The notes beneath the pieces were generated by a model, which was given only the letters and a program-made list of their open reading frames with translations, did not search any database and was not told the DNA's origin. The position numbers were made by a program, and so were the translations under genes. DNA of 64,000 bases from Candidatus Aenigmatarchaeota archaeon (GTDB taxonomy: Archaea; Aenigmatarchaeota; Aenigmatarchaeia; PWEA01; JACQIF01), in contig CP066684.1 of NCBI GenBank assembly GCA_016432325.1, forward strand, positions 1 to 64,000, written 5' to 3'. How positions within the stretch are numbered: position 1 is the first letter of the stretch; each line of letters starts with the position of its first letter. Of the stretch, positions 24,822-60,966 are shown one piece after another.

Positions 24822-24932
24822 CGGGCCCGGTGGGATTCGAACCCACGGCGCTCCGGTTCCACCTTGCGGAAGATTGCTATCTTCCATTAGCCACTAAGAG
24901 CCGGATGCTCTACCAAACTGAGCTACGAGCCC
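24822..24932 (-). tRNA. tRNA-Lys(CTT) with 37-nt anticodon-loop intron
   Basis: Acceptor GGGCTCG pairs with CGGGCCC, discriminator G. D-arm GCTC/GAGC, anticodon stem TCCGG/CCGGA with loop CTCTTA | A, T-arm GTGGG TTCGAAT CCCAC. The anticodon CTT is at 24896-24898. A 37-nt intron (24858-24894) interrupts the loop at the canonical 37/38 site and folds on GGAAGAT/ATCTTCC. The mature tRNA would be 74 nt. Confidence 0.93.
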
Positions 24933-24938
24933 TGTTGG

Positions 24939-25037
24939 CGCCGCGATCGGGATTTGAACCCGAGTCAGAGCTGTGACAGAGCTCTATGCTTAGCCCAGTG
25001 TTTTCGAACACATGATAGGCCACTACACCATCGCGGC
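24939..25037 (-). tRNA. tRNA-Asp(GTC) with ~26-nt insertion before the anticodon stem
   Basis: Acceptor GCCGCGA/TCGCGGC is perfect, discriminator G73 is right for Asp, T-arm is TCGGG TTCAAAT CCCGA and the anticodon arm is GAGCT CTGTCAC AGCTC with GTC. Between the D-arm and the anticodon stem lie about 26 extra bases with a hairpin GTGTT-cga-AACAC. CAT repeats at both ends leave the splice point open by three bases; a D-loop placement (25 nt, between TGG repeats) is also possible. I could not draw a strict bulge-helix-bulge, so the site is non-canonical. Confidence 0.88.
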
Positions 25038-25094: not shown

Positions 25095-25282
25095 CACTAT
25101 CGTTGCGCGCTCCTCCACTTTTTGTGGAGAAGACTGATTGCTTCGTAGCACAGTTAAAACTAGAGCGAGATATCGAACTCATGCTGAACGGTGAGCTTAC
25201 CAAACTATCCAACCCCGGGGCCTCGATGACTATCAAAGTGCTGGAATTTGCATTCCAACATTACGGTCCGATGACCATAAGT
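25095..25282. other. Unassigned stretch in the RNA island
   Basis: No ORF is supported. There are tRNA-like fragments on the minus strand (a D-loop-like AGTTTGGTA and a T-loop-like TTCGAT) but no complete cloverleaf. A near repeat, CGATGACTATCAAAGTGC (25223) and CGATGACCATAAGTGC (25269), flanks the hairpin TGGAAT-ttgc-ATTCCA next to the 5S end. Could be a small RNA or a decayed tRNA. Confidence 0.35.
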
Positions 25283-25401
25283 GCTGACAGCGTCCTGACT
25301 TTCCCGTTGCATGCGCAACAGTACACGCCATATCGCTGAAGGGCTTAACTTCCAGGTTCGAAATGGAGACTGGGTGTTTCCCCTTCGCTTTGGCCGTCAG
25401 C
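25283..25401 (-). rRNA. rrf: 5S rRNA
   Basis: About 119 nt. On the minus strand it reads GCTGACGGCCAAAGCG at the 5' end, then the conserved CCATTTCGAACCTGGAAGTTAAGC block and ends CGCTGTCAGC. Helix I pairs GCTGAC with GTCAGC. It stands alone, with no 16S or 23S gene in this window, and the 3' side abuts a hairpin repeat. Confidence 0.92.
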
Positions 25402-25885: not shown

Positions 25886-26100
25886 TCCCGGGAGCGTGAT
25901 TTTCATGCACCGCCGGAAGGCGGAGTTTCTTTGCACGCGTGCTTTCTTTTTAAAGAAAGCCCGCTTTGAACACGCGACCCGCCGGTTTCTATTTGCGAAC
26001 AACGGCTACTCGTTTTCGCGCTAGGCGAAAAGTCTACAGCCGGCTGCTCTGTGGCGAATCCGTTCGCGCGAACGGCCAACTACCGCTGAGCTACCCCGGG
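25886..26100 (-). tRNA. tRNA-Tyr(GTA) with three introns (D-loop, 37/38, T-loop)
   Basis: Acceptor CCCGGGG/TCCCGGG gives the archaeal Tyr identity pair C1-G72 and A73. D-stem GCTC/GAGC is split by 31 nt (26050-26080) with hairpin CCGTTCG-CG-CGAACGG. Anticodon stem GCCGG/CCGGC, loop CTGTAG | A with GTA at 26035-26037, intron 25987-26033 (47 nt). T-stem GCGTG/CACGC, loop TTCAAA | T at 59/60, intron 25900-25964 (65 nt). The mature product would be 72 nt from a 215-nt gene. Boundaries in the D-loop may shift by a few bases. The precursor leader carries another hairpin, CCTCGAACC-GGTTCGAGG (26113-26132). Confidence 0.9.
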
Positions 26101-29749: not shown

Positions 29750-29828
29750 GTTTGACCTTTGTGTGGTGCGGGAAGCCGTAAAGCTTCGCTTTCCGTTCCC
29801 CCAACCTTTGACGTTTATGGTGCGGGAG
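29750..29828. repeat. Imperfect direct repeat flanking a hairpin at the tRNA-Leu 3' end
   Basis: GTTTGACCTTTGTGTGGTGCGGGA (29750-29773) and CTTTGACGTTTATGGTGCGGGA (29806-29827) are near copies; the second includes the acceptor end of tRNA-Leu. Between them is AAAGC-tt-CGCTTT with flanking GGAA/TTCC. Same arrangement as at tRNA-Asp. Confidence 0.65.
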
Positions 29829-30081
29829 GTCGGAAAACCACGGTGGGCGCAACGTTTCTTTTGCACCCGTGCTTTTCTACGCGAACTGACGCACACCAAG
29901 TGTGCGTCGAGCACCTCGCGAAAAGCCCGGTTTGAACCGACGAAGGCACTAAGCCACCAGGTCTCCCTGTGGTTATGCCACACCTGAGCGTGACCTCACA
30001 CCTAAGCTTTGCCTCGCGCTCGTACTCGGAATCTCATCCGAAAGCGTGATCTGGCCCCATTGACCGCTAGGGTACTCCCGC
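29821..30081 (-). tRNA. tRNA-Leu with a 96-nt T-loop intron and interrupted anticodon arm
   Basis: Acceptor GCGGGAG/CTCCCGC with A73, D-arm CCC TAGC GGTCAAT GGG, type II variable arm GGC-ttagt-GCC and T-stem GTCGG/CCGAC identify tRNA-Leu. The T-loop reads TTCAAA | T with a 96-nt intron (29835-29930) that itself carries a hairpin GACGCACAC-GTGTGCGTC. The anticodon 5' stem CCAG and 3' ACCTGG are about 85 nt apart. At least one and probably two introns lie there (near 30/31 and 37/38), with CTCAGG or CTTAGG as the candidate anticodon piece, so CAG or TAG. I cannot decide between them. Confidence 0.8.
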
Positions 30082-31778: not shown

Positions 31779-31844
31779 GCACTTCACCAATTTCTGCGTG
31801 GGGGAATTGAAATCGCAATTTCATATTCTCCCATGCACTTCACC
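31771..31844. repeat. 18-bp direct repeat flanking a hairpin at the rpsD start
   Basis: TCTCCCATGCACTTCACC, which holds the rpsD start codon and its upstream GGTGAAGTGC, is found at 31771-31788 and exactly again at 31827-31844. The 38 bases between include ATTGAAAT-cgc-AATTTCAT-like pairing. The outer copy lies right after the rpsM stop, so the insertion appears to have pushed rpsD away while rebuilding its ribosome-binding region. Confidence 0.85.
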
Positions 31845-32434
31845 TACTTCTTCTCGGCAGGCTTTGCGCCTTCGCCGGGCTTGGCCTTCGCGCGCACGAC
31901 GCCCACGGAACCGCTCTTGCGGAATGACGAACGCGTTCTCTGTCCGCGCACGGGCTGTCCGAGCCTGTGTCTCCATCCGCGGTAAGAACCGTACCTCATC
32001 AAGTCCGAGAGTTTCTGTCTCAGAGAGACGTCGAGATCCGAAACCGTGAGGTGCCTGTCTTTTCCTGTTTCAGCGTCTTTCCTCAGGTTGAGCATGTAGG
32101 AAGGAATGTTGTAATTTGCCGGGTTGCGTACGATTTCTTCGAGCTTCTTTAGCTGGTCCTCTGTGAGCGTGCTGGTCTTTGTCAGCGGGTCCAATTCGGC
32201 CACGAGGCATATCGCCTTTGCCAGCGAGAAGTTGACGCCTCTGATGGCGCGGAGCGCGTTGAAGATGCTTGCGTTTCCGTCGAGGTCTGTCGCCATGAGA
32301 CGGACTATGTTGCGTTCGAGAGTCGGCTCGGGCTTGCCCTGTTCTTTCTTGAGGGCCTCGCGCGCCTTTTTCTCCTCTTCGCGGCGCTGCTCCTCGATCG
32401 GGTCCTTCGTCGTCTTTCCTTTCAATCCGCCCAT
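31844..32434 (-). CDS. rpsM: Ribosomal protein uS13 with N-terminal extension
   Basis: 196 residues; archaeal S13 is usually about 150. The first ~35 residues (GGLKGKTTKDPIEEQRREEEKKAREALKKEQGK) are a charged helical extension. The core follows: NIVRLMATDLDGNASIFNALRAIRGVNFSLAKAIC, and SYRGWRHRLGQPVRGQRTRSSFR near the end, then a Lys/Ala tail. First gene of the uS13-uS4-uS11-rpoD run, 49 bases after tRNA-Ser. Confidence 0.95.
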   Translation of the reverse strand: MGGLKGKTTKDPIEEQRREEEKKAREALKKEQGKPEPTLERNIVRLMATDLDGNASIFNALRAIRGVNFSLAKAICLVAELDPLTKTSTLTEDQLKKLEEIVRNPANYNIPSYMLNLRKDAETGKDRHLTVSDLDVSLRQKLSDLMRYGSYRGWRHRLGQPVRGQRTRSSFRKSGSVGVVRAKAKPGEGAKPAEKK

Positions 32435-32483
32435 TTTGACACCGATTCTTTTTCGCGTAAGCGTATTTTTGATGTTGGTTTGG

Positions 32484-32698
32484 CGCTGGGGGTGAGATTA
32501 TCAGCCCTACGCCTTGTGCAAAGCATCTCAGCAGTAGGGAATTCGAACTCACGCGGGCTTGCGCCCACCGGTTTTCTTGCCGTGTTTCTTTTGCACCCGT
32601 ACTTTTCTTTTTGAAAGAAAAGCCCGGTTCAAGACCGGCGCAGTGAATCCCTAGCCGCACGCTTGCGCGCACGGGTTACCAGGCTTTGCTACCCCAGC
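32484..32698 (-). tRNA. tRNA-Ser(TGA) with three introns (D-loop, 37/38, T-loop)
   Basis: Acceptor GCTGGGG/CCCCAGC with G73 (Ser). D-stem GCA/TGC is split by about 32 nt (32645-32676) with hairpin CGTGCGC-gcaa-GCGTGCG. Anticodon stem CCGGT/ACCGG with loop CTTGAA | A, TGA at 32629-32631, intron 32575-32627 (53 nt). Type II variable arm GGGC-gcaa-GCCC. T-stem GTGAG/CTCAC, loop TTCGAA | T, intron 32498-32542 (45 nt). Mature length would be 85 nt. A TATA (GTTTAAATG, minus strand, about 32723-32732) is well placed. D-loop borders may shift slightly. Confidence 0.9.
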
Positions 32699-32817
32699 GT
32701 ATTCTAACTGGGGTTCGGATGGCATTTAAACGTGTCTAAACGCCTCTCTGAAGCTTTCAGGCAAAGCATATAAGCTTGTCGCCAAGGCCAAAAACGGAGT
32801 TTTCGCGGCTAAAAGCA

Positions 32818-33537
32818 CTATCCGAACAGCCTGAACGGCTTGGCCTCTTCGAAACCCGCCGCGCCGATGACGAACTGCGCTTGCGTTCCCTCAGGCAGCG
32901 AGCGGTGCTTGCGCAGGACGGCGAGTCGCCTGCCCTTGTCGTCCAGTTTCAGCAGTTCTACGAGGCACTTCGACCAGTAGCGCGCGACGTCACGCGATAC
33001 GAGTTCTATCGTTCCGCGGTTGTCGAACTCGCTGTATATCTGGTTCGTTATCAGTATCGGGACGTTTGCGTCTCTCGCGAGCTTCGAGAGTATTGACAGC
33101 TGTTCAGACAGTTTCTTGTTGGCTTCCACGTGTCCGCCGTTACCCATCTCCAGCCTGTAAAGAGCGACCAGCGAGTCTATGACGACGAGCCCCGCGGCCT
33201 CCTTCTCCACGATCTTGTCCAGTTTCTTTACAAGCTCGCTCTGTTCCTTGAATGTCTTGGGTTCCATCATCAGAATCTTCTTGGAGACGCCCTCAAAATC
33301 GGCGCCGTTGCAAATCTGGGCGAGACGCTCGGGGCTGAACCCTCCTTCAGTGTCGATGAACACGACCTTCTTGCCCGCGCGCACGGCGGCTACAGCGGCA
33401 AGCAGCGCCACGTTCGTTTTTCCCGCGCCTGCGGGACCGAAGACGTTCGTCAACGACGCGTACTCTATGCCGCCGCCGAGTAGATCGTCCAGTGATTTCG
33501 CGCCCGTCGCGAGCCGAGGATTCGTGTATTCTGCCAT
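32818..33537 (-). CDS. radB: DNA repair and recombination protein RadB
   Basis: 239 residues, RecA-fold only, without the helix-hairpin-helix N-domain of RadA, as expected for RadB. Walker A FGPAGAGKTN (33-42), Walker B LVVIDSLVALYRLE, and the ITNQIYSEF region are seen. RadB is a RadA paralogue thought to help recombination. Promoter faces the small membrane gene region to its right. Confidence 0.93.
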   Translation of the reverse strand: MAEYTNPRLATGAKSLDDLLGGGIEYASLTNVFGPAGAGKTNVALLAAVAAVRAGKKVVFIDTEGGFSPERLAQICNGADFEGVSKKILMMEPKTFKEQSELVKKLDKIVEKEAAGLVVIDSLVALYRLEMGNGGHVEANKKLSEQLSILSKLARDANVPILITNQIYSEFDNRGTIELVSRDVARYWSKCLVELLKLDDKGRRLAVLRKHRSLPEGTQAQFVIGAAGFEEAKPFRLFG

Positions 33538-60784: not shown

Positions 60785-60966
60785 GCTGGGGTAGCCAAGC
60801 TTGGTTTACGGCGCCAGACTGGAAACCACACTTTTGCGAAAAGTGTGGGCAAAAACGACGAGCAAAAAACGGAAATCTGGTGGGCGCAAGCCCGCGCGAG
60901 TTCAAGCGCCTTTTTGCCGCGGCAAAAACCCGCGGGAAAACGGCCGAACGAATCTCGTCCCCAGCG
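60785..60966 (+). tRNA. tRNA-Ser(GGA) with two introns (37/38 and T-loop 59/60)
   Basis: Acceptor GCTGGGG/CCCCAGC, G73, D-stem GCC/GGC, anticodon stem CCAGA/TCTGG with loop CTGGAA | A and GGA at 60821-60823. Intron 60825-60874 (50 nt) has a hairpin CCACACTTTT-GCG-AAAAGTGTGG. Variable arm GGGC-gcaa-GCCC. T-stem GCGAG/CTCGT, loop TTCAAG | T, intron 60907-60952 (46 nt). The mature tRNA is 86 nt. A TATA (CTATTTAACA) is at 60736-60745. CC follows G73. Confidence 0.92.

Follow-up and report, generated by a model that had tools for sequence, protein, structure and literature searches.

A tRNA-Ser(UGA) gene interrupted by three introns almost certainly lies on the minus strand, positions 32698-32484, of the DNA analysed here, which comes from an Aenigmatarchaeota archaeon (DPANN) with a single-contig genome of 874,769 bp. 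The stretch under study, bases 1-64000 of that contig, is referred to below as the window. The uS11 protein shares 91% identity with that of an Aenigmatarchaeota MAG, which places the organism in this phylum. Three-intron tRNA genes, intron transposition and intron-rich tRNA sets are already known from other archaea, and it is the genome-wide setting of the gene, together with the splicing endonuclease (EndA) encoded in the same genome, that is more interesting than the single gene.

Gene structure and detection

The gene lies between RadB (32818-33537) and uS13 (31844-32434) and reads GCTGGGG...CCCCAGCG CCA. G1 is at 32698 and the discriminator G73 at 32484, while an encoded CCA (32483-32481) extends the gene to 32481. 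Its parts, all on the minus strand, are as follows.

32724-32730, minus: TATA-like TTTAAAT starting 32 nt upstream of G1, a possible promoter
32678-32698, minus: exon 1, with the acceptor 5' strand, U8, D-stem 5' strand and D-loop to GGT (3' edge +/- 1-2 nt)
32647-32677, minus: D-loop intron, about 31 nt, with an internal hairpin; central helix CCU:AGG
32628-32646, minus: exon 2, with the D-stem 3' strand, anticodon stem 5' strand and anticodon TGA to A37
32574-32627, minus: anticodon-loop intron at 37/38, 54 nt, repeat family B; bulge-helix-bulge (BHB) helix CTTG:CAAG, 4/4 pairs
32542-32573, minus: exon 3, with A38, the anticodon stem 3' strand, long variable arm, T-stem 5' strand and T-loop to A59
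32498-32541, minus: T-loop intron at 59/60, 44 nt, with a CCCTAC:GTAGGG hairpin; central helix 3/4 pairs
32484-32497, minus: exon 4, with T60, the T-stem 3' strand, acceptor 3' strand and discriminator G73
32481-32483, minus: CCA end, encoded in the sequence

The gene was detected with a purpose-written cloverleaf search in which the D-, anticodon and T-loops may each hold an intron. This intron-tolerant scan returned only four matches in the window, Ser(GGA) (score 66), Ser(TGA) (65), Lys(CTT) (64) and Tyr(GTA) (61), and the Ser(TGA) match ends exactly at 32698 and 32484. We also built a covariance model, R1, from 14 type-I tRNAs of the genome, none of them Ser, plus ten copies with N-filled introns. 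It places Ser(TGA) at the same ends (29.5 bits, E 6e-5) and puts an insert into each of the D-, anticodon and T-loops. The sequence-only reading had proposed a tRNA-Ser(TGA) gene with introns in these three loops at 32484-32698; its coordinates prove exact, its three introns reappear as the R1 inserts, and the strand, which it had left out, is the minus strand. The spliced product is read by ARAGORN as tRNA-Ser(tga), in agreement with the proposed identity, and its cloverleaf, with a 7-bp acceptor, a long variable arm and a Ser anticodon, is that of a type II archaeal tRNA-Ser.

That standard scans would probably miss such a gene had also been anticipated, and rightly so. ARAGORN finds no tRNA in the unspliced gene, even with introns allowed, and detects none at all in the raw window, while Rfam reports only the 5S rRNA and two other tRNAs there, RF00005 missing Ser(TGA). 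A likeness to tRNA-Tyr had been pointed out as well, and both the scan and R1 find three introns in the Tyr gene at 26100-25886. Since three free gaps let many sequences fold as a tRNA, one might imagine a chance cloverleaf, made of unrelated pieces put together by eye, but this is barely conceivable. When the whole window was shuffled 200 times with dinucleotides preserved and scanned on both strands, the best score was 50, against 65 for the real gene; a model that had seen no Ser tRNA matched with identical ends; and the exons are common to the three other Ser isoacceptors of the genome. Homologues in related genomes already refute it. A split or permuted tRNA gene was likewise rejected, the four exons being colinear within 218 nt.

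Several other disrupted tRNA genes occur in the window. tRNA-Tyr(GTA) (25886-26100, minus strand) has introns in the D-loop, at 37/38 and at 59/60, and an encoded CCA. tRNA-Ser(GGA) (60785-60966, plus strand) has introns at 37/38 and 58/59 and an uninterrupted D-arm. A tRNA-Leu, placed approximately at 29821-30081 (minus strand), has a family B T-loop intron and a disrupted anticodon arm. Two further genes adjoin the 5S rRNA (25282-25401), namely tRNA-Lys(CTT) (24822-24932, minus strand), with a 37/38 intron, and tRNA-Asp(GTC) (24939-25037, minus strand), with a D-loop intron.

Conservation and covariation among relatives

The Ser(TGA) exons are identical to those of the order-mates G009 and G004 at 73/86 and 63/86 positions, respectively. 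The order-mates' Ser(TGA) genes retain the 37/38 and T-loop introns; in five genomes of family f5 the third intron sits in the variable arm and not in the D-loop, while G004, from another family, has introns at all three sites of the present gene. We compared nine Ser tRNAs, drawn from the present genome and related ones and either spliced or naturally uninterrupted. Stem pairing held in 216/216 cells of an alignment whose splice sites were hand-chosen with the cloverleaf in mind, a choice that bears on the variable-arm strands of the f5 genes and on no other helix strand, and 11 of the 24 stem pairs carry changes on both sides. When partners were slid, 36-54% of the cells paired, with 0-3 doubly changed pairs.

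These data bear on whether the locus could be a decayed pseudogene broken by insertions, with Ser(UGA) decoding taking place elsewhere. Its failure to be recognised by ARAGORN and Rfam would fit such decay, but every stem is intact and compensatory changes are seen between species, the order-mates retain two of the intron sites, and only one Ser(TGA) gene was located in the genome, among four Ser isoacceptors. The pseudogene reading would moreover make nearly every tRNA of the genome a pseudogene, and we regard it as highly improbable. The UCA codon is in use (8 of 1777 codons in seven neighbouring genes).

In the sister species G001, the locus next to RadB has no Ser(TGA) tRNA. In the D-loop of its Ser(GGA) gene, G001 carries a family A intron at the very point where the Ser(GGA) of the present genome runs on, GGTTTA/CGGCGCC (loci L132 and L153), so that comparison of the two D-arms exhibits the intron-free state itself. 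Long Ser(TGA) anticodon introns were observed in G004 and G017 (L155 and L163); that of G004 contains GATGATGA and CTGA-like motifs, and is possibly a box C/D RNA.

Predicted splice junctions

Only the central helix was counted as evidence for a BHB, because the outer helix is supplied by the anticodon and T stems at 37/38 and 59/60, and counting it would be circular. At 37/38, CTTG (positions 32-35) pairs with CAAG near the 3' end of the intron, with bulges AA and AAA. A 4/4 central helix of this kind is reached by 1.9% of random position pairs, and the helix and bulges form in the predicted anticodon-arm fold at no more than 0.2 kcal/mol from the minimum. At 59/60, the central helix has 3/4 pairs with one C.U mismatch, i.e. 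a relaxed BHB, which counts against the explanation that we favour. These are the two junctions named in the sequence-only reading, and they remain the best supported ones.

The D-loop junction is probably placed to within 1-2 nt. All likely registers share a CCU:AGG core. One of them leaves a 13-nt loop, AAGCCTGGTTCAC, which matches the uninterrupted D-loop of the order-mates, AAGCCAGGTTCAA, and has a 3/4 helix; the register with a full 4/4 helix gives a 14-nt loop, and no strict BHB also yields 13 nt. A group I intron was rejected at all three sites, as the window holds no Rfam group I match and the introns measure 31-54 nt.

tRNA disruption across the genome and the class

Combining the scan, R1 and intron-motif searches, we located 39 tRNA genes or tRNA-like loci in the genome, of which 37 are interrupted, although this census, drawn from searches and targeted stretches of the genome, is incomplete and the loci found by intron motif bias the interrupted count upward. 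All three sites are filled in 12 of the 25 fully parsed genes, and at least two further genes (L131 and L148) appear from R1 alignments to have three introns, making at least 14. With 37/39 genes interrupted and at least 14 of them carrying three introns, Ser(TGA) is typical of its own genome. A first pass of R1 over a genome detects only part of the multi-intron genes, and direct scans of the loci do better. CCA is encoded in 24 of the 25 scanned genes. One tRNA gene (L074, 1464-1710, plus strand) has an anticodon-loop intron that is best placed at 33/34, giving Val with anticodon CAC, and not at 37/38.

Only eight tRNAs in the entire genome score above the cut-off of RF00005. Among 60 relatives the RF00005 counts range from 2 to 63 and often fall below 20 even in genomes more than 90% complete, which suggests that tRNA disruption is widespread in the class. 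Standard searches recover only a handful of the tRNAs of this genome because nearly all are interrupted, and tRNA counts for such archaea are consequently misleading.

Intron families and their probable spread

One striking feature of these introns is their similarity to one another. Among 61 introns extracted we found 49 significantly similar pairs, 23 of them at different sites, against none in 100 shuffled intron sets; one group of 17 members occupies D-, anticodon and T-loops. The 37/38 intron of Ser(TGA), a member of family B, shares 93% identity over 44 nt with the T-loop (59/60) intron of tRNA-His, which argues that introns spread between genes and sites, and 96% over 25 nt with the T-loop intron of the tRNA-Leu in the window. 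Besides Ser(TGA), the family B core occurs in eight places, all of them T-loops of tRNA genes or tRNA-like loci, and it is confined to this genome among the 21 searched.

Judged from the intron sequences, this similarity is best explained by recent spread between tRNA genes and sites, and the introns of a family very probably share descent and have moved. Gene conversion between tRNA genes, or convergence, could also produce similar introns without movement, and family A is indeed found for the most part in D-loops and T-loops, some of them in tRNAs whose arms resemble one another. Neither process fits well with family B, which occupies 37/38 in Ser but 59/60 in His, between unrelated flanking exons with the 44-nt match given above, or with a family A intron in the Ser(GGA) D-loop of G001 where the present genome has none; we consider this alternative unlikely. 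The near-identical introns at different sites and genes, along with a sister species with and without an intron at one site, make the mechanism of spread testable outside the Thermoproteales.

Probable splicing machinery

The genome has an RtcB gene (C1:406386) and one EndA gene, the only one found (L093 1474-2079, minus strand, around C1:849784-850062). The EndA product of 201 aa aligns with the Methanocaldococcus jannaschii enzyme but is about six residues longer (VKLKKGPKSAKEH) in the stretch that separates the Tyr motif from the His motif; this loop (KKGPKS) matches that of Nanoarchaeum equitans (3iey_A) without a gap. In the AHxxRK motif, the Lys conserved in solved homologues is replaced by Ala or Thr in this genome (Ala) and in 29 relatives of the class. 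We take this Lys to be the third catalytic residue, and Ala at its position in the sole EndA found counts against our preferred explanation. A Lys of the loop may substitute for it, or there may be a second subunit too diverged for PF01974. Loops of such kind accompany broad substrate specificity (PMC12397907, PMC4033280), while single-gene alpha4 enzymes have been described as limited to canonical BHBs (PMC4033280).

The single EndA found probably does the cutting. The introns might instead be real but removed in another way, the EndA found being an altered one; a second endonuclease subunit that escaped recognition might, for instance, take part. The Ala or Thr at the conserved Lys position in this genome and 29 relatives, and the relaxed BHBs of the T-loop and D-loop, would be in keeping with this. 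Yet EndA is conserved and single-copy, with its remaining motifs intact and an N. equitans-like loop, the introns carry BHB-type central helices, and no Rfam group I intron was matched. Removal in another way seems to us very unlikely.

With cutting by EndA as the preferred reading, the locus would be a functional tRNA-Ser(UGA) gene, the sole one found in the genome, transcribed as a precursor with introns in the D-loop and at 37/38 and 59/60. Each intron and its flanking exons would form a standard or relaxed BHB, to be cut by the one EndA with its enlarged specificity loop; RtcB would then join the four exons, and the resulting tRNA, 89 nt long with its CCA, would read UCA codons. Gene anatomy, conservation, covariation, the relationships among introns and the presence of EndA and RtcB genes are what the sequences show, while transcription, cutting and ligation of the Ser(TGA) precursor are inferred. 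At least the anticodon intron would derive from a family of short introns that spread, by whatever way of moving, across tRNA genes and sites within the lineage.

It is conceivable, and we propose it only tentatively, at somewhat short of an even chance, that mobile BHB introns moving between D-, anticodon and T-loops invaded tRNA genes throughout the genome of this DPANN lineage, in a still recent episode of the lineage's own. An EndA encoded by one gene, with a specificity loop like that of Nanoarchaeum and an altered catalytic centre (Lys to Ala or Thr across the class), would have enabled this. For work on archaeal tRNA intron spread, the genome offers an apparently simple one-gene endonuclease to assay.

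Comparison with known systems

Multi-intron tRNA genes, with up to three introns, have been reported in Thermoproteales, e.g. tRNA-Glu(UUC) of Pyrobaculum calidifontis and tRNA-Pro(UGG) of P. islandicum (PMC4390854), and large-scale tRNA intron transposition has been described in this order (Fujishima et al. 2010, as cited in PMC4033280 and PMC4090602). Going by these accounts of it, the present genome resembles the Thermoproteales in having up to three short BHB introns per gene at canonical and non-canonical sites, and in that introns of similar sequence recur across tRNA genes and across sites. It differs in its DPANN host and the single EndA gene found, and in that three-intron genes are common (at least 14 of the 39 located) and the T-loop site 59/60 is a dominant one. 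In the Asgard archaea Atabeyarchaeia and Freyarchaeia, the passages of PMC11291895 on tRNA introns give 92-95% of tRNA genes as interrupted, over half with several introns and often at non-canonical sites. Mostly interrupted tRNA genes, multiple introns and non-canonical sites are thus shared, as far as those passages describe them, although the lineage studied here is unrelated; the same main-text passages make no mention of three-intron genes or repeated intron families. Because three-intron tRNAs are known from Thermoproteales and 92-95% interruption is described for Asgard archaea in these sources, the Ser(TGA) gene belongs to a known type. We found no report on tRNA introns in Aenigmatarchaeota in a literature search conducted largely outside subscription journals.

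The splicing endonucleases of N. equitans and ARMAN-2 have lineage-specific loops (PMC12397907). Extra residues between the Tyr and His motifs are a likeness to these enzymes, whereas the EndA described here differs in being encoded by one gene of about 200 aa with no second subunit found, and in having Ala for the conserved Lys. EndA architecture varies within the class, where we observed a one-domain single gene, a two-domain protein of about 365 aa, or two adjacent genes (G005-G013, G017, G024 and G030).
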